Source: a virus
DNA length: 55,135 nt
IMG/VR virus record: IMGVR_UViG_3300034198_012209
Span: 1 to 55,135 of that record
Direction: 5' to 3' (one strand)
Position 1 is the stretch's first letter. Every line of letters begins with the position of its first letter. The notes under the pieces are model-generated. The model ran no database searches. It saw only the letters and a program-made list of their open reading frames with translations, and was not told where the DNA came from. This document shows, one piece after another, positions 6,769-46,165 of this stretch. The position numbers and the translations under genes are program-made.

Positions 6769-6787
6769 TAATAAATTCCGCATTGCA
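6769..6787 (+). promoter_or_regulatory. 19-bp dispersed element, copy pointing right
   Basis: The sequence TAATAAATTCCGCATTGCA matches the family described at 30008-30026. Here it lies between the TerS start and the rightward operon and points right, about 220 nt before csrA. Confidence 0.6.
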
Positions 6788-8834: not shown

Positions 8835-8982
8835 TAAGGATAATTGGTTTGATTATTTAACTGATGTATTGTTTTGTTTGTTCGTAGTTTGTTGTTTATT
8901 CCTTATTTTACTTTTGATAGGATATTCTATACAAGAGATAATAAAGATATGGACAACTATAAGTTATGGAGGTGCAAGGTGA
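8824..8982 (+). CDS. 52-aa single-span membrane protein
   Basis: The frame starts MKFDKDNWFDYLTD, followed by a strongly hydrophobic segment (VLFCLFVVCCLFLILLLIGY) and a short charged tail. It overlaps the hydroxylase gene by 11 nt and the next gene's GTG by 4 nt. Tight overlaps on both sides support it being real. It may partner the hydroxylase in the membrane; function unknown. Confidence 0.75.
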   Translation: MKFDKDNWFDYLTDVLFCLFVVCCLFLILLLIGYSIQEIIKIWTTISYGGAR

Positions 8983-9266
8983 GTAATTTCAAAGTTGGCG
9001 ACAAAGTTTGGGTACAGTGCGAGGTGAAGGAAACTACGCATCACAGCGTGCGTATTTGCTTTGACGGTGTTAATTGGTTTTGGGCTGGTAAAGAGGACTG
9101 CCGATCCGTCGAGCCAGGACCAGTTGTAAAGGAATCCTTGACGACTGAACTCAACGATCCGTCTAATGGATGGGAACCTACAAAGGATGAAGTTGAATAC
9201 GCAATGGATCGTTGCGGTGTACCAGTTAATAAAGAAATTGACAACTTTAAAGAAGAATTAGAGTAG
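8979..9266 (+). CDS. 95-aa SH3-like protein
   Basis: The GTG start at 8979 is preferred because GGAGG lies 7 nt upstream; the frame extends further up but into the preceding gene. Residues 4-12 (FKVGDKVWV) begin an SH3-like barrel as in the KOW-type gene upstream. Base composition shifts to more GC-rich codons from here to about 9688. Function unknown. Confidence 0.75.
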   Translation: MSNFKVGDKVWVQCEVKETTHHSVRICFDGVNWFWAGKEDCRSVEPGPVVKESLTTELNDPSNGWEPTKDEVEYAMDRCGVPVNKEIDNFKEELE

Positions 9267-20121: not shown

Positions 20122-20149
20122 GATTTACGATTTCTTTCCTTGTCTTATT

Positions 20150-20201
20150 CGTTTCAATTTTAAAATCGATGCAAGCTTGAAACGATTAAACTTGCATCGA
20201 T
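20150..20201 (-). promoter_or_regulatory. Pseudoknot-like leader RNA
   Basis: Two inverted repeats interlock: CGTTTCAA (20150-20157) with TTGAAACG (20177-20184), and ATCGATGCAAG (20165-20175) with CTTGCATCGAT (20191-20201). Both stems are perfect. Spacers of 7, 1 and 6 nt would allow an H-type pseudoknot or two exclusive hairpins. Two further hairpins (20204-20218 and GTCTCAATTTGAGAC at 20230-20244) precede it in the transcript. Confidence 0.6.
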
Positions 20202-21656: not shown

Positions 21657-21690
21657 AAAAAACCCACTACAGATGTTACTCTGTAGTGGG
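21657..21690 (-). terminator. Intrinsic terminator downstream of 21776-22153
   Basis: On the minus strand CCCACTACAG and CTGTAGTGGG form a perfect 10-bp stem with an 8-nt loop, followed directly by TTTTTT. This is a textbook rho-independent terminator. Confidence 0.9.
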
Positions 21691-26670: not shown

Positions 26671-26975
26671 TTGTTTGTTGTGATGATTATGAGTTCTTTA
26701 GGGACCATGCGTAATGCTTCAGCTACTAATGCTTCAGCTACATCGTAAATGTTTGAAGAATCTTTAAATTCAATTAAAGAATCGAATGTAATTGGAATGT
26801 CGTGTATAAATTTTTTGTGCCCTTTTTTTCGTATCGTCCATCTAATGTTTAGTTTAGTACGTTCTACAAAAATAGACGTATGCCCAAAGTTTAAATCTCG
26901 ATGAAATACTCGTAGTATGATACTGAAATTAGTAAATACTAATCTGTAGTAATCTAGCGAATGCTCTTTTGTCAT
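26664..26975 (-). CDS. Unknown 103-aa protein between polA and primase
   Basis: The ATG at 26975 overlaps the polA stop as ATGA; an in-frame ATG at 26990 adds five residues. It is an alpha/beta protein with no motif, overlapping the primase start by 7 nt. Translational coupling suggests a replication accessory role. Confidence 0.75.
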   Translation of the reverse strand: MTKEHSLDYYRLVFTNFSIILRVFHRDLNFGHTSIFVERTKLNIRWTIRKKGHKKFIHDIPITFDSLIEFKDSSNIYDVAEALVAEALRMVPKELIIITTNKC

Positions 26976-28960
26976 GCTGAAGTTGTCCATTCATTTAGTT
27001 TCTTTGCTTCTGCCCAATTGTCTTCAATGATTTCAGGTTTACAAATACAAGGTACGCCAAACTCTTTACCTGCATTCTCCATTATGGACGATAATGCATT
27101 TAAAGTTGTAACAATCTTTTTCCGCCCTAAACTTTTCTGGAGAGAGAAAAGTAATTCATCATGTACTTGAAGTATTAACTTACATTTACTTAGGGTGGTG
27201 TCTTCTACATAACGAGTTGTTTTTCCTACTTTTTCAAGTAAGAAATTGTTGAGTATGTAACTATCGCAGTTAGTTAGTGCATGTTTAACTATGTCACCTT
27301 CAGTTCCTTGCACTATGTAGTTTACTCCTGCGTAGGCTTTGTTACGTGGGACACGCAATCGGTAGCCTGAAGCCGTTTCGACGTATCCGTTACGTTTAAC
27401 AAAGGACACGGTTCTATTGATCGATTCCGTAACACAAGGAAATAGTGCTTGTACTCTTCGAAAGATTCCCGGCATTCCGCATGTCGCGTCGATCTTTCGT
27501 TCTCCTGCCCCGAAGATGTATCCGAAGTTGACATTTTTTGCAATTCTCCGTTGTAGCTTAGTTGGTTCATTAGTTTCAAAGATTTGCATAGCCATGTAGT
27601 TATGAAAATCAAAACCATCTTCAAATGCCTTAATTAGTTTAGGGTCTTTTGACCAATAAGCAAATATTCTAAGCTGTAACTGATCGTAGTCAATAGATGC
27701 CCATAGTTGGTTTCGTAAAGGTCCGAAAGCTTTACGAATTGAGTAAACGACTATAGGATTACCGTTCTCGTCAAATGCTTCTTTACCTTTACTAATGTTT
27801 TGTCCGTTAGGGTCAGACATAGCCATACGAGTAGTTGATGTACCGCATTGTTTGGTGGACGGATATAGCTTCCAATCTAAGTGGAAGCGTTTGTAAGAGT
27901 TTAGATAAGATACTGCTGAATTGACTGCACGATAGTCTAGTAAAGCATCTAAGAATTTTATAGCTATCTTAGAATTCTTTTGAAGTTTCAATGCTGGCAA
28001 GACTTGCTTATCAGTTGATGCATTACCGTTTTTTGTTAATTTTTCTGGTTTGAAGTTAAAGTAGTCATACAAAGTTGACTTGAGTTGAGGACCACTGTTA
28101 GGGTTAAAGTCTTCATTGTTTAGTATTTGATGCATACTATCTAAAGCGTTTTGTCTATCTTTAGATGCGTTAATTATTAACTTGTTGAAATTAGTTCTAT
28201 GTACGGTTAGACCATTCCTAGCCATTCTGTAAATAGGCATCAGAAGATTTTGTTGAATTGCAAATGGACGCTCTAAATGGTTACTGTCTTCAAAAGTTAC
28301 TTGTTGACGTATGAAGAGTGCTGCTGTACGTATCGCATCTTTTATTGCATAAGTACGACATACAGTATTGTAGAAGTGATCTTTAGGAAACGAGTAATGC
28401 TCTCCGTATGCTTTTGGCAACCAAAAGTCGCATTTATGAAATTTATCTTTTTGTCCAGCTAAATGAGGGTGTCCTTCTGTTGCTAATTGCCAACCCATAT
28501 CTTTTAGTTCAGATTTTCTACGAAGTGACTTTACACAGTCATCTAATTCTTTTTCATCGTCATCAAGCATGTCACAATTAAGTAATGCTTGGTCTTTGAG
28601 TCCTAATGGTTGGCTTGAGTCAATTACGTGTGCTCTAATAAGAGTATCGTAGTATCTAAAGTTGCCTTGCGTGTAGAATTGTGGTAACGCTTCTAACTTT
28701 CTGGAAGGTAGAAGAGATAACATGAATAAGTCAAAATTCATGTTATGGTATACGTGGGTATTGAATGAGTAGAGTAGGTCGCAGAAGCTAGTTAGTGTTC
28801 TGCTAGACCACTTTGGATTGCGTGTTAGTGGATCTACTGGTGCTTCGAAGTAGTTGGTAGTACCGTCTTGATCGCATGTAGAAATTGCAAATACTCTACA
28901 ACCATGATTACCAAAAAGTCCAGTTGCTTCAGTGTCAATTGCTAGAAATTCGTTTATCAT
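26972..28960 (-). CDS. Family A DNA polymerase with 3'-5' exonuclease
   Basis: The exonuclease domain starts FLAIDTEATGL (Asp9, Glu11) with a later NFDLFMLSL. Polymerase motif A is WASIDYDQLQLRIFAYWS; the position of the usual Glu (Glu710 of E. coli Pol I, the sugar gate) is Gln. Motif B RRIAKNVNFGYIFGAG has Phe at the position of Phe762, and the Tyr766 position is also Phe. Motif C is QVHDELLFS. At 662 aa there is no 5'-3' exonuclease domain, typical of phage enzymes. It replicates phage DNA. A pyrimidine-CCAG copy follows motif C and another lies in the exonuclease part. Confidence 0.95.
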   Translation of the reverse strand: MINEFLAIDTEATGLFGNHGCRVFAISTCDQDGTTNYFEAPVDPLTRNPKWSSRTLTSFCDLLYSFNTHVYHNMNFDLFMLSLLPSRKLEALPQFYTQGNFRYYDTLIRAHVIDSSQPLGLKDQALLNCDMLDDDEKELDDCVKSLRRKSELKDMGWQLATEGHPHLAGQKDKFHKCDFWLPKAYGEHYSFPKDHFYNTVCRTYAIKDAIRTAALFIRQQVTFEDSNHLERPFAIQQNLLMPIYRMARNGLTVHRTNFNKLIINASKDRQNALDSMHQILNNEDFNPNSGPQLKSTLYDYFNFKPEKLTKNGNASTDKQVLPALKLQKNSKIAIKFLDALLDYRAVNSAVSYLNSYKRFHLDWKLYPSTKQCGTSTTRMAMSDPNGQNISKGKEAFDENGNPIVVYSIRKAFGPLRNQLWASIDYDQLQLRIFAYWSKDPKLIKAFEDGFDFHNYMAMQIFETNEPTKLQRRIAKNVNFGYIFGAGERKIDATCGMPGIFRRVQALFPCVTESINRTVSFVKRNGYVETASGYRLRVPRNKAYAGVNYIVQGTEGDIVKHALTNCDSYILNNFLLEKVGKTTRYVEDTTLSKCKLILQVHDELLFSLQKSLGRKKIVTTLNALSSIMENAGKEFGVPCICKPEIIEDNWAEAKKLNEWTTSA
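27133..27151 (-). repeat. Pyrimidine-CCAGRAA motif in polA, after motif C
   Basis: Sense strand CTTTTCTCTCTCCAGAAAA; read as FSLQKS, with extra residues compared with E. coli Pol I after HDEL. Confidence 0.55.
28698..28717 (-). repeat. Pyrimidine-CCAGRAA motif in polA exonuclease part
   Basis: Sense strand TCTCTTCTACCTTCCAGAAA; read as LPSRK, in the third reading frame. Confidence 0.55.
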
Positions 28961-29000: not shown

Positions 29001-29042
29001 AAAAAAACCAACCGCACCAGGGAGTAATTCTGATGCGGTTGG
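29001..29042 (-). terminator. Intrinsic terminator between SSB-like gene and polA
   Basis: On the minus strand CCAACCGCA and TGCGGTTGG form a perfect 9-bp stem with a 17-nt loop, followed by TTTTTTT. It should cut transcription leaving the SSB-like gene before polA. Confidence 0.88.
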
Positions 29043-29052
29043 ATAAGTCATT

Positions 29053-29105
29053 CCTATTCGGACTTTCTTGTTAAACACTGGGTCCGAATAGGAGTGTTTG
29101 ACAAG
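29053..29105 (-). promoter_or_regulatory. Interlocked inverted repeats, possible attenuator
   Basis: CCTATTCGGAC (29053-29063) pairs with GTCCGAATAGG (29082-29092); CTTGTTAAACACT (29067-29079) pairs with AGTGTTTGACAAG (29093-29105) except one position. The two stems interlock with no spacer between the right arms, so they should be mutually exclusive. They precede the terminator at 29001-29042 in the transcript. Confidence 0.55.
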
Positions 29106-29169
29106 AAGCTGGAACGGTATCAGACTTTTACAGTACGTCAACTAGTTGGTACCTAGATAGGGTAGTATA

Positions 29170-29991
29170 CTAAGCTTCAAGTACTTCGTCAACCTTGACT
29201 GTGAAAGATTCTCCCTTAGCGTTCTTAGCTTTGAAAGTGCCTTTCTTAGAGTCGTAAGATAGTAGAGTAACTGTTGCTGCTTTTGGCATCTTAGCTGTCT
29301 TAACTTTGGCTTTATTACCAACCCAGTCAGCAGGATTTTCTAAAAGATCGTTTTCCTCTTCCTCTTCTTCGTCTTCGCTTTCTTCAGCAGCTTCGTCTTC
29401 CGATTCCTCTTCTTCTTCGTCGGAGTCTGAATCGTCTTCTTCATCTTCAGATTCAGAGTCTTCTTCGTCGATTACTCGGTTGACTTGGGTATCGATACCG
29501 CTTTCACCGTACCGAGAAATTGTAATAGATACGCTTGGGCGATCTTCTTTGATCTGATCCAAGATACTCTTCAGAGCATCAGAACCAAGATCGTCAGTCT
29601 CGTATCCCATACGCTGAAGCGTGAATGCTAAGTCTTTGTAGGCTTGTTCCTCAGTACGCTTTCCTTGTTCTACCAAAGAGATGTACTTGCCTGGAGTCTG
29701 ACCAGCACCTACAGAGCCAGTGCATACGAAGTTGAAACTAACGTAAGGATTTCCGTTCTTGTCAACACCGCAACGAGCTGCTGTACACTTAGCAGTTGTT
29801 GTAGTTTTACCTCCAATCCTTAGCTTGAAGGCTTCGATAATTTCTTCAGTTGTAGTGTAAGAGTTAGGAGCCTTTTCAGCACCAGCTTTCTTTAGGATTG
29901 ATCCTTTGGCTTTGAGTGCTTTGAAGAATTGATCCGATGTATCGTTGCCTTGTGCCGGTTTGCCAGTGGAAGGTTTCTTAGCTGTAGCCAT
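29170..29991 (-). CDS. Acidic SSB-like replication protein
   Basis: The start at 29991 (MATAKKPSTG) is chosen because the 19-bp element lies at 30008-30026 with AAAGG before the ATG; a frame upstream to 30012 crosses the element. The first 160 residues (KLRIGGKTTTTAKCTAARC and following) resemble phage single-strand DNA-binding or DUF669-like proteins. Residues 175-225 are almost all Glu, Asp and Ser, then a KOW-like beta domain ends the chain. An acidic tail is typical of SSB proteins that recruit replication partners. Strong terminator downstream suggests high expression. Confidence 0.7.
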   Translation of the reverse strand: MATAKKPSTGKPAQGNDTSDQFFKALKAKGSILKKAGAEKAPNSYTTTEEIIEAFKLRIGGKTTTTAKCTAARCGVDKNGNPYVSFNFVCTGSVGAGQTPGKYISLVEQGKRTEEQAYKDLAFTLQRMGYETDDLGSDALKSILDQIKEDRPSVSITISRYGESGIDTQVNRVIDEEDSESEDEEDDSDSDEEEEESEDEAAEESEDEEEEEENDLLENPADWVGNKAKVKTAKMPKAATVTLLSYDSKKGTFKAKNAKGESFTVKVDEVLEA

Positions 29992-30007
29992 AGTAGTAGT
30001 ACCTTTA

Positions 30008-30026
30008 TGCAATGCAGAATTTATTA
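30008..30026 (-). promoter_or_regulatory. 19-bp dispersed element before the SSB-like gene
   Basis: The minus strand reads TAATAAATTCTGCATTGCA, then TAAAGG and 11 nt later ATG. This is the clearest copy: the element, ribosome site and start codon are packed into about 40 nt, as expected if transcription starts near the CATTGCA end. Confidence 0.7.
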
Positions 30027-37657: not shown

Positions 37658-38929
37658 GATTGTCAATCCTGTGTTTTCTTCAGTTTGACTAACTAAATCT
37701 TGAGTACCACCTTTTCGAATACTGTTTATTTCAGAAGATATTTCTGCATCTTCTAAGGATACACGTTCTACTTTGTATCTTTTAGTTTTGAAATTTACAA
37801 GTACTAGATAGTTGAGTACTTGCATAGTAAAGTCATAGATAACTTGGTCTGATAAGTGAGCTAGGGTACTGTAGTAAAGCATCATAGGGACTTTACGACC
37901 AGTTGCAGAACCCATAGTGTTATCACCTTGAGATTCAGCAACTTCAGGTGGAATGCCTAGTGCTTCTAGAATTTCGTAACGTAGTTCTCGTGGGTACTCC
38001 ATAAGTCCGTTTGGAGTAATGTTTGCTGCTGGTGGAGTGTATCCCCATTTTTGTTGGCCTGATGCAGCGTTGATATCGTCTGGAAATACTCTGTAACCAC
38101 CAGTACGCATGTTAGACATCATTTGTACTGCTAAGGTTAGGTTGTCTATCTCTTGCTCTCCAACTTTGGTTTTACCGATGGGGTATCGCATTTCTCCACC
38201 ATCAAATGCATTCTTGATGAACCAAGTACGTCTAATGTCACGTGCTCCATAGCATACGTAAGATTCGTGCCAAGGAATAGAACACCATTCTAGTCGAGAT
38301 TGTCCAAATACAGAATTGTGTTTACGATTATGAATATGCCATAGCACTTTAGGAAATAGTAGGTCTACTCCATTAGGGTAGTTGGGAACGCCTTTTATTC
38401 TAGATCCTACAAGTTGGCTATCAAGAAAAAGTGGATTTACCGATTCAGTGTTGTAGTTCTTTAAGTAGTCATACTGGACCATTCCATCTTCATCTTTTTT
38501 GTACACTACTTGATTGCAGGAGAATCCCCATTCAATAGCAGTCAATGCTTCGTCTAATCCTAGAGTCCAAAAACGTTTTAGAGTTTGAAGTACGAACTCT
38601 TCAATTCTAGGATCAGTAGCAGTTACTTTATACATAAAGTTTGCACCATTAGCTTTTAGCAAGTCAATAAGTGCTGGACTTTTACTTTTTTCTGCTGACA
38701 TAAAAACTGTGTTGTACTGGATCGGTCCTTTTAGCATTTGAAGACCGAATCGAATACGACCATCCCGCATCATTACGGGAATGGTCGTTCTATTAAACAT
38801 TGGAATGTTATGACCGTACTGAGGATCGTACAGCGGTAACGGTGAAGTATTGGCAAGCGTATGTATAGGACTACTAGCATAACTAGTAAGCATTTCTTCT
38901 ACAGAAGATACTGGTTTGGTATGAGTCAC
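37655..38929 (-). CDS. Portal protein (DUF935/Mu gp29-like)
   Basis: The 424-aa protein shows portal hallmarks: an N-terminal helical wing, SVFGQSRLEW and PWHESY, a stem helix, and LEALGIPPEVAES near residue 325. Portals form the dodecameric head vertex through which TerL packages DNA. The GTG start overlaps the stop codon of the frameshifted chaperone by one base (TAGTG). Its stop TAA is part of the downstream 19-bp element. Confidence 0.85.
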   Translation of the reverse strand: MTHTKPVSSVEEMLTSYASSPIHTLANTSPLPLYDPQYGHNIPMFNRTTIPVMMRDGRIRFGLQMLKGPIQYNTVFMSAEKSKSPALIDLLKANGANFMYKVTATDPRIEEFVLQTLKRFWTLGLDEALTAIEWGFSCNQVVYKKDEDGMVQYDYLKNYNTESVNPLFLDSQLVGSRIKGVPNYPNGVDLLFPKVLWHIHNRKHNSVFGQSRLEWCSIPWHESYVCYGARDIRRTWFIKNAFDGGEMRYPIGKTKVGEQEIDNLTLAVQMMSNMRTGGYRVFPDDINAASGQQKWGYTPPAANITPNGLMEYPRELRYEILEALGIPPEVAESQGDNTMGSATGRKVPMMLYYSTLAHLSDQVIYDFTMQVLNYLVLVNFKTKRYKVERVSLEDAEISSEINSIRKGGTQDLVSQTEENTGLTI

Positions 38930-39452
38930 TATTTCAATCTCCTACTTTGTTCTTCACTGTCTTGCATTAACCAATTATTTTGCAACTTATTAGCTAACTC
39001 TTCGTCGCCAAATGCTTGGAAGTGTAATTGACCAATGTTGCTTGCGTTATAACTGTATAGACTTTCTAGTTTTTCTCTAGCCTGTACTACTGGTATAGCT
39101 AGAGATAAAAGGCTTAGCTCTCGGACTCCCCATCCGTTTGGGAGGCCATAGAATCTAACTGCCTCAGCAATGGGGATGATTTTTTTTTAATTTCCATGAG
39201 CATATCATTAGCTTCTGAATACAAAGCTAATAAAATTGCTTTATGAGTGATACCAAGACCGTATTTAGCTTCAAACTTATCAAGCATGATTTCCCAGAAG
39301 TCATCCATACCTAGTTTGTCAGCGTCTTGGATAGCTTGTTCCCGCAGTCTTACAACGTCTAGACAGTCTACGGTACAGATTACCTTACCGTCTTTAGGAT
39401 CGGTAATTTCGAGTTCACATTCTTCTGGTGTTGGAAGTTGGAAGGTGGCCAT
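38929..39452 (-). CDS. Tail assembly chaperone pair made by -1 frameshift
   Basis: The zero-frame product (39114-39452, 112 aa, starting MATFQLPTPE) runs to QTDGESES. At 39180-39188 the coding strand has nine A, reading AAA AAA AAA, a perfect A AAA AAA slippery site. A -1 shift continues as IIPIAEAVRFYGLPNGWGV for 83 residues to a TAG that touches the portal GTG, giving a 174-aa fusion. This matches the G/GT chaperone scheme of many tailed phages, although the position here is next to portal. A pyrimidine-CCAG copy lies just before the ATG. Confidence 0.8.
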
Positions 39453-44804: not shown

Positions 44805-44842
44805 GATTGCTACTTAGTTGGATATGGACTTTTAAAACGACT

Positions 44843-44867
44843 ATAGCCTAGCACTACGCTAGGCTAT
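44843..44867 (-). terminator. Hairpin terminator after the tail tube gene
   Basis: ATAGCCTAGC and GCTAGGCTAT form a perfect 10-bp stem with a 5-nt loop. On the minus strand it is followed by GTCGTTTTAAAAG, a weak T-run, so termination is probably partial and lets the tape measure be expressed at lower level. Confidence 0.65.
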
Positions 44868-44908
44868 TGTCTCATTTTTAGTGTAGACTTGCAATAAGCA
44901 ATCCTAGA

Positions 44909-45541
44909 CTACGCTGCTCGCACAAAATAGTTAAGCTGATTGCCGCAAACAGACCCAAAGGATGCCGCTGGTTGTCCAGTTGCGAGTGCTCCAGAACTCC
45001 AATCGGGAAGGATATGAAATGCAATAGGTATTTTACGTAGACTAGCAGCGTACTTAATAGATACTGGATCTGCTGTAAGTACTGCTTTAGCAAAAGTAAT
45101 TGATCCTAGAGCTGTTGCTTGAGCACCTGCACCTACTAAGTCTAGAAGTTTTGCTGTAGTGCCGCCACAAGGAGTTAGAACTAATGGACGAGCCATTTTG
45201 CTAAGCAATTGTCCAGTACTGTTCGGTACAGTTCCTTGAAACCTAAAAATGTCACCGTCCCATGCAGTAGCAGGTGGTACAGCAAGTCCTGTGAAAATAG
45301 TACCGTCTTGATCGTTGTCAAATGCTAATAGAATATCCGTGATTACTTCGTGGTCTGCTTCCATTAGAACGGTTCGAAGTGTCATGTCAATTCCTTGAAA
45401 GACCCCATCTACCATACCACGGTATTGGTCAACGCGAATTTCTTCGTAGATCCTATTGAAGGTAAGCTCGAAACCGTCTTCAGTGGTTCCCATAGGCTTA
45501 CCGTTGAATGTTGCGTTAAAGGCCCCTGCAATAAAACTCAT
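44909..45541 (-). CDS. Tail tube protein
   Basis: The 210-aa protein starts MSFIAGAFNATFNGKPMG and has a TLRTVLMEADHEVITDILLAF segment typical of major tail tube proteins, with a beta-sandwich composition and position between the tail connectors and the tape measure. A partial terminator directly downstream is consistent with high expression. Recognition is by fold pattern and position. Confidence 0.75.
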   Translation of the reverse strand: MSFIAGAFNATFNGKPMGTTEDGFELTFNRIYEEIRVDQYRGMVDGVFQGIDMTLRTVLMEADHEVITDILLAFDNDQDGTIFTGLAVPPATAWDGDIFRFQGTVPNSTGQLLSKMARPLVLTPCGGTTAKLLDLVGAGAQATALGSITFAKAVLTADPVSIKYAASLRKIPIAFHILPDWSSGALATGQPAASFGSVCGNQLNYFVRAA

Positions 45542-46101: not shown

Positions 46102-46115
46102 AGGATACTTCCTTC

Positions 46116-46134
46116 TGCAATGCAGAATTTATTA
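46116..46134 (-). promoter_or_regulatory. 19-bp dispersed element before the 187-aa gene
   Basis: The minus strand reads TAATAAATTCTGCATTGCA, then GAAGGAAG and ATG. It is the right-hand half of a near-perfect inverted pair with 46147-46165. Confidence 0.65.
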
Positions 46135-46146
46135 GCGAAAGGTGTC

Positions 46147-46165
46147 TAATAAATTCAGCATTGCA
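46147..46165 (+). promoter_or_regulatory. 19-bp dispersed element, inverted partner copy
   Basis: TAATAAATTCAGCATTGCA reads rightward; with the copy at 46116-46134 (plus one base on each inner side) it forms a 20-bp stem with a single mismatch and a 10-nt loop. It overlaps the stop codon of the gene at 46155-46766. No rightward gene follows, so if it is active it would make antisense RNA or act as a terminator. Confidence 0.55.

Follow-up and report, generated by a model that had tools for sequence, protein, structure and literature searches.

In a virus contig of 55,135 bases (the window, by which we mean the whole stretch of DNA that was analysed), two interlocking inverted repeats stand just ahead of a terminator that separates an ssb-like gene from the gene for a family A DNA polymerase. 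This arrangement raises the question of whether the choice between two mutually exclusive RNA hairpins governs termination at this point, and so the ratio of the two gene products, as an initial annotation had proposed in describing the site as attenuator-like. The contig carries tailed-phage genes encoding a terminase, a portal, a major head protein, a Sak4-like annealing protein, an exonuclease and a helicase. The main genes near the site all lie on the minus strand. On that strand the order is a promoter-like motif (30026-30003), the ssb-like gene (29991-29170), the crossing repeats (29107-29049), the terminator hairpin (29042-29008) and the polymerase gene (28960-26972), with the following features:

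30003..30026, minus strand: TAATAAATTCTGCATTGCA(TAAAG), a promoter-like motif immediately before the ssb-like start in 7/7 loci
29170..29991, minus strand: ssb-like gene, 273 aa, ATG at 29991; open reading frame with homologues 56-66% identical in 5 further phages
29113..29127, minus strand: candidate anti-terminator segment, able to pair with 29040-29026 in the 5' arm of the terminator, or with the RNA after B', which would extend stem A-A'
29093..29107, minus strand: arm A of stem A-A'
29082..29096, minus strand: arm B of stem B-B', with 29093-29096 common to arm A
29065..29079, minus strand: arm A', partner of A (7 bp, mismatch, 7 bp)
29049..29063, minus strand: arm B', partner of B (12 bp, mismatch, 2 bp)
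29001..29042, minus strand: predicted intrinsic terminator, 13-bp stem 29042-29030 / 29020-29008, 9-nt loop, T7 at 29007-29001
26972..28960, minus strand: DNA polymerase family A gene, 662 aa (PF00476, E 6.4e-58; phrog_17, E 3.5e-86)

The terminator between the ssb-like and polymerase genes

The polymerase assignment made in the initial annotation was borne out by the PF00476 match. The ssb-like gene, which has an alternative in-frame TTG at 30012 upstream of its ATG, encodes a protein consisting of an N-terminal part, an acidic stretch and a small C-terminal beta domain; the structural model is of low confidence (mean pLDDT 52.9), with the beta domain modelled confidently (pLDDT about 90). 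Profile, PDB and fold searches gave no confirmation of an SSB identity: Pfam and PDB searches returned weak matches alone, mostly within the acidic stretch, one of six homologues weakly matched the phrog_15004 'SSB' profile (E 0.057), and a BFVD fold search was without a match at E<=0.001. The gene lies in a neighbourhood of replication and recombination genes, and we treat it as a putative DNA-binding-protein gene.

A strong terminator is indeed located between the two genes. It has the sequence characteristics of an intrinsic terminator, a stable, G+C-rich hairpin (29042-29008, dG -21.9 kcal/mol) followed directly by seven T on the coding strand and 3' of a gene. The terminator starts 127 nt past the ssb-like stop codon, and the polymerase gene begins about 40 nt beyond the T-tract. 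At the lambda tR2 terminator in E. coli, repression by the ribosome is gone beyond 30 bp and efficiency is then maximal, at about 0.9, according to PMC4824070. Given that limit, the distance of 127 nt makes ribosome-coupled attenuation unlikely in the window, and for the spacers of 49-127 nt found among its relatives efficient termination would be expected, if the lambda data are transferable. A scan of the window at -17 kcal/mol found one other strong terminator on the coding strand (21662-21690, minus strand; dG -21.7, T8), and a strong terminator-like hairpin followed by T6 lies at 44839-44880 on the plus strand, antisense to the surrounding genes.

Both the ssb-like protein and the polymerase were used to scan viral contigs for relatives, which, together with the window (G000), gave seven loci with the gene pair, G000-G005 and L083. 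These represent six distinct phages (G000, G001, G003, G004, G005 and L083), G002 being a near-identical contig; G003 and G004 are close to each other. The succession of ssb-like stop codon, spacer of 49-127 nt, strong terminator and polymerase gene is common to 6/6 distinct phages with the gene pair. Across the loci the terminators have dG values of -21.9 to -30.4 kcal/mol and T-rich tails, and their sequences differ among phages except in the close pair G003/G004. The comparison with relatives that the initial annotation had called for thus places a terminator at the same position in every one of these phages. That this group of uncultured phages has retained a terminator at this junction, even as its sequence was replaced, points to selection for unequal expression of the replication proteins. 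In L074, an eighth locus with a homologous polymerase (50% identical), another gene precedes the polymerase gene, and the 330 nt viewed there contain no such terminator. Searches of phage records returned no DNA match to the window, only distant polymerases and no ssb-like match, and genome contigs yielded no further relatives; four distant ssb-like matches (L085-L088) are 27-32% identical.

A 19-nt motif, TAATAAATTCNRCATTGCA, is present directly ahead of the ssb-like gene in 7/7 loci (G000-G005 and L083). Copies in the window are found at 46134, 37657, 30026, 20495, 13713 and 6939 on the minus strand and at 6769 and 46147 on the plus strand, and G001, G003 and G004 each contain 9-11 copies at <=2 mismatches; the 24-mer form has four minus-strand copies at <=3 mismatches, with 0 expected. 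The motif also precedes other genes, where a purine run resembling a ribosome-binding site and a start codon often come next, and we infer that the motif is a phage promoter. At 46111-46165 two inverted copies form a 19-bp stem, and G001, G002, G003 and G004 likewise have an inverted pair. Large unassigned proteins tried as candidates for a phage RNA polymerase gave no Pfam match. The initial reading presupposes that polA has no separate promoter after 29000, and none was found: a scan of the window detected no sigma-70-like site on the minus strand at 29007-28960, and in all 7 loci the stretch from the ssb-like gene to polA is free of the conserved motif. With a terminator in 6/6 phages, a motif belonging to the ssb-like gene and none before polA, termination may well set the ratio of the two products.

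Two crossing stems in the spacer

The inverted repeats had been described as 11 and 13 bp long and interlocking with no gap. Both exist, and their stems are slightly longer than stated, with 14/15 pairs each: A-A' consists of two 7-bp runs around a single C.A mismatch, and B-B' of 12 bp, one mismatch and 2 bp. The tight crossing also holds, although the arms do not merely abut, as A and B overlap by 4 nt (29096-29093); 2 nt separate B from A' and 1 nt separates A' from B'. Because the stems are about one helical turn in length and the linkers 0-2 nt, steric considerations would exclude the coexistence of A-A' and B-B' at full length, in keeping with the claim that only one can form at a time. 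Likewise, as an H-type pseudoknot 29049-29107 would have linkers of -4, 2 and 1 nt, too short to cross stems of the full 14 pairs.

We defined tight crossing stems as pairs of stems with at least 10 pairs each and linkers of -5 to 8 nt. Two such elements occur in the window (29049-29107 and 20145-20201), compared with none in 300 first-order Markov shuffles of it; at a threshold of at least 9 pairs the shuffles contained 0.02 per window. Forty distant polymerase loci (L010-L049, 22-24% identity), used only as a background for crossing stems, contained one tight crossing pair (10+10, in L042). Looser crossing pairs of at least 8 pairs in G001-G004 were set aside, their number being at or slightly above chance (about 0.8 per 55 kb). 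The 209-nt intergenic RNA has a predicted energy of -60.3 kcal/mol (z -4.44), and 0/200 shuffles were equally stable. No report of interlocked hairpins ahead of a phage terminator was found in the open-access literature searched, judged at the level of search listings.

The stems alone have predicted energies of -11.9 (A-A') and -17.9 kcal/mol (B-B'), and the best folds of the respective segments reach -13.9 and -19.8 kcal/mol. In a 169-nt RNA, the sequence from 29127 onward pairs with the bases directly after B' and extends A-A' into a long rod of -52.0 kcal/mol, compared with -51.8 kcal/mol for the B-B' state in the predicted ensemble. With the two states within about 0.2 kcal/mol of each other, the mutual exclusion is real and, on paper, bistable. 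Predicted folding of the nascent transcript has A-A' alone until about 29055 and B-B' taking over at 29052-29049, after which both are populated.

Comparison with the relatives lent the interlock no wider distribution. It was found only in the window and G002, and was absent from G001, G003, G004, G005 and L083. The spacers of these other phages have helices of their own, of 14 pairs in G003/G004 and 12 pairs in L083, with several shorter stems in G005 and weak ones in G001, and the helix sequence changes from phage to phage. Measured against 200 shuffles, the segment with the upstream helix had z values of -1.6 (G000), -5.1 (G003), -3.5 (G004), -1.5 (G001), -2.9 (G005) and -2.4 (L083), the weak values of G000 and G001 corresponding to 12/200 and 17/200 shuffles as good. 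Of the 14 pairs of the upstream stem in G003 and G004, 9 are unchanged and 1 is broken; of the others, 2 differ at both bases and 2 at one base. Slid controls gave 0 covariation; the column-shuffle control (135/500) is not decisive, and the covariation comes from one pair of related sequences. Between the window and G002, the block 29127-29000 differs at 1/128 positions (29111) compared with 9/81 in the remaining spacer (Fisher p 0.001), and the interlock at 29107-29049 differs at 0/59 compared with 10/101 (p 0.014). The coding differences between the two contigs are 13/822 and 26/1989, and against that rate 0/59 is unremarkable (Poisson 0.46). From the sequences of this one close pair, the interlocked element looks constrained within the G000/G002 lineage.

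We consider it probable, though well short of certain, that the ssb-like gene forms a terminated unit, that the polymerase gene is reached by read-through, and that the hairpins serve as a spacer, guard or 3'-end structure. Transcription would start at the conserved motif ahead of the ssb-like gene, and the transcript would mostly end at the predicted intrinsic terminator (29042-29001). The polymerase gene would then be expressed only through read-through or from transcripts that escape termination, the outcome being far more ssb-like protein than polymerase. The spacer helices would likely hold the ribosome and the terminator apart and likely engage the upstream RNA in pairing, leaving the terminator arm free to fold unopposed; perhaps they also protect or mark the 3' end of the ssb-like mRNA. 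In the G000 lineage, the spacer helix would adopt two exclusive, near-isoenergetic forms, the long A-A' rod or the B-B' hairpin. The idea of a guard rests on folding predictions for G003, G004, G005 and G001, in which the upstream RNA traps the nascent terminator arm less than shuffled sequences do; this effect was not seen in G000, G002 or L083, where 0.43, 0.33 and 0.47 of 300 shuffles were as good. The feature is real and its core is ordinary, a conserved intrinsic terminator and a preceding hairpin, whereas the lineage-specific bistable helix is unusual. The interlocked hairpins, though striking, are a trait of one lineage and not the common feature of the group.

Alternative roles for the crossing stems

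An alternative that we regard as possible but unlikely is that the rod and the hairpin differ as targets of RNase III, RNase E or exonucleases, in which case the bistable element would tune the decay of the ssb-like mRNA or the cutting of an ssb-polA read-through RNA. The near-equal predicted energies of the two states, about 0.2 kcal/mol apart, would suit such a role, and a helix is found at this place in 6/6 distinct phages, with the weak z values of G000 and G001 noted above. Furthermore, RNase E cleaves the T4 gene 32 (SSB) mRNA at +831, close to the stop codon, and does so in several T4-type phages, according to PMC3014915. The restriction of the interlock to the G000/G002 lineage argues against a role that depends on two states.

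The attenuator reading, in a form in which the choice between A-A' and B-B' would act on the terminator through the anti-terminator segment 29127-29113 and set polymerase expression, appears improbable. Mutually exclusive helices are present upstream of a terminator, as in an attenuator. The candidate segment pairs at 12/15 positions with 29040-29026, and it is unchanged in G002, while 29169-29128 has 7/42 changes. Nascent folds ending at 29026-29020 predict this pairing at 0.92-0.95 together with B-B', the state with which the candidate anti-terminator goes; it is transiently favoured before the terminator 3' arm emerges, at which stage the terminator 5' arm of G000 is predicted to be 63% paired upstream. 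However, neither A-A' nor B-B' overlaps a terminator arm, and the predicted probability of the terminator is 1.0 with either stem forced. When half of the terminator 3' arm is exposed, this probability is already 0.75-0.99 across the 7 loci and 0.99 in G000; a score of only 0.2 for the nascent fold at prefix 29015 arises because eight outer pairs are scored that are mostly untranscribed there. Once the terminator is complete, forcing the anti-terminator pairing 29127-29113/29040-29026 yields -39.8 compared with -52.0 kcal/mol, about 12 kcal/mol worse.

Shuffled sequences lead to the same view of the attenuator. The gain from anti-terminator pairing in its folded context was equalled by 0.43 (G000) and 0.33 (G002) of 300 shuffles, and the same test gave 0.97 for G003, 0.99 for G004, 0.82 for G001, 0.93 for G005 and 0.47 for L083; upstream RNA thus paired with the terminator 5' arm at above-chance strength in 0/7 loci (300 shuffles each). 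In G003, 7 nt of upstream sequence are complementary to the terminator arm of that phage, a match partly kept in G004 as judged by eye; it was equalled by 0.044 of shuffles in bare duplex energies, but gave no gain in the folded context. Stems that contain no terminator arm, a terminator predicted at 1.0 in both states and an anti-terminator at chance level do not support attenuation, and nascent-prefix folding, forced-state folding and shuffling all lent the anti-terminator no support; the absence of the interlock beyond G002 points the same way. Within these folding models, the choice between A-A' and B-B' does not appear to gate the terminator. Of the original suggestion that the ratio of SSB to polymerase is set here, the part that concerns termination may hold, whereas control by hairpin switching is not supported.

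It is quite improbable that the repeats act as DNA, as a replication origin, protein operator or recombination site, and not as an RNA element. The crossing inverted repeats adjoin replication genes and the block is conserved in G002, but in the other phages the arms and the crossing pair are absent from this position while an RNA helix is present, and the exact sequence of arms A-B was matched only by G002 among the viral contigs. We give even less credence to a bistable 3'-UTR switch, in which the ssb-like or another replication protein would bind the exposed arms and alter read-through or RNase cutting; were it true, polymerase expression would track the amount of free ssb-like protein, and the element would be the 3' feedback equivalent of the pseudoknot in the T4 gene 32 leader. 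Most improbable is a small RNA comprising the hairpin and terminator and transcribed from a sigma-70-like site in the end of the ssb-like gene (29192-29164, 10/12 matches), since the number of promoter-like sites does not exceed chance (4 compared with 5.5 expected), the -10-like hexamer is altered in G002, a properly spaced match was not seen by eye in G003 or G001, and the B-B' hairpin plus terminator matches the Rfam sRNA Hrs13 weakly (19.7 bits, E 0.009 for 251 nt), far under the gathering cut-off of 52.

A pseudoknot-like leader and comparison with known systems

The other tight crossing pair in the window, at 20201-20145 on the minus strand, lies 24 nt ahead of a small gene (20121-19759) that is followed by another small gene and then a helicase gene. 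It comprises S1 of 11 bp, L1 of 6 nt, S2 of 8 bp, L2 of 1 nt and L3 of 7 nt. These linkers suit an H-type pseudoknot, and compensatory changes are present in both crossing stems. Homologues of the small gene were found in 4/6 other records (G001, G003, G004 and G005), and not in the short fragments G002 and G006. Counting the window, the small gene was thus located in five phages, and in 5/5 a crossing pair occupies this leader; its positions in the relatives are as follows:

G003, 45244-45298: pseudoknot-like leader
G004, 38929-38983: pseudoknot-like leader
G001, 8932-8984: pseudoknot-like leader
G005, upstream of 52227: pseudoknot-like leader

Counted from the aligned pairs, the leader elements lie 21-28 nt ahead of a start codon, which in G003 and G004 is that of small ORFs of their own, about 530 nt ahead of the homologue. 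Among the four alignable phages, 3 S1 pairs and 2 S2 pairs have changed on both sides; 2/11 S1 pairs are broken in G005, and the leader of G001 has the same layout in unrelated sequence. No Rfam family matched the leader at its cut-off. On sequence evidence, 20201-20145 is a plausible H-type pseudoknot, a pseudoknot-like mRNA leader. Being both shared and covarying, it is a better regulatory-RNA candidate, and a more promising lead, than the interlocked hairpins.

Two tRNA-like remnants lie nearby on the minus strand, at 20803-20744 and, by eye only, at about 20741-20655. They have a T-arm and acceptor-like pairs, score 23 bits with the tRNA-Sec model, which is below the cut-off, and were not called by ARAGORN. 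In G001 a tRNA-Ser lies some 1 kb ahead of the pseudoknot, and in G005 a tRNA-Arg precedes the same small gene.

In leader-type transcription attenuators such as those of trp and pyrBI, alternative and mutually exclusive RNA helices precede a terminator. The site between the ssb-like gene and polA resembles them in having exclusive helices ahead of a terminator, but its helices include no terminator arm, have no supported anti-terminator and lie 3' of a gene. Control of T4 gene 32 (SSB), described in PMC3014915, is similar in that an RNA structure is associated with a phage SSB gene, the ssb-like gene of the present site being putative. The T4 pseudoknot, however, is located 67 nt upstream of its gene, whereas the structure described here follows the ssb-like gene on its 3' side, and the window's pseudoknot-like leader (20201-20145) is part of another operon. 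Partial intra-operon terminators that set expression ratios, as discussed in PMC4824070, stand between genes that are perhaps needed unequally, as does the predicted terminator of the phage site. Finally, the hairpin-cluster terminators described in PMC8355165 share with the phage site a G+C-rich hairpin and T-tract past a stop codon and a second hairpin within about 15 nt before it; the phage site differs from them in that the helix before its terminator exists in two interlocked, mutually exclusive forms, and in its position inside a replication gene cluster.
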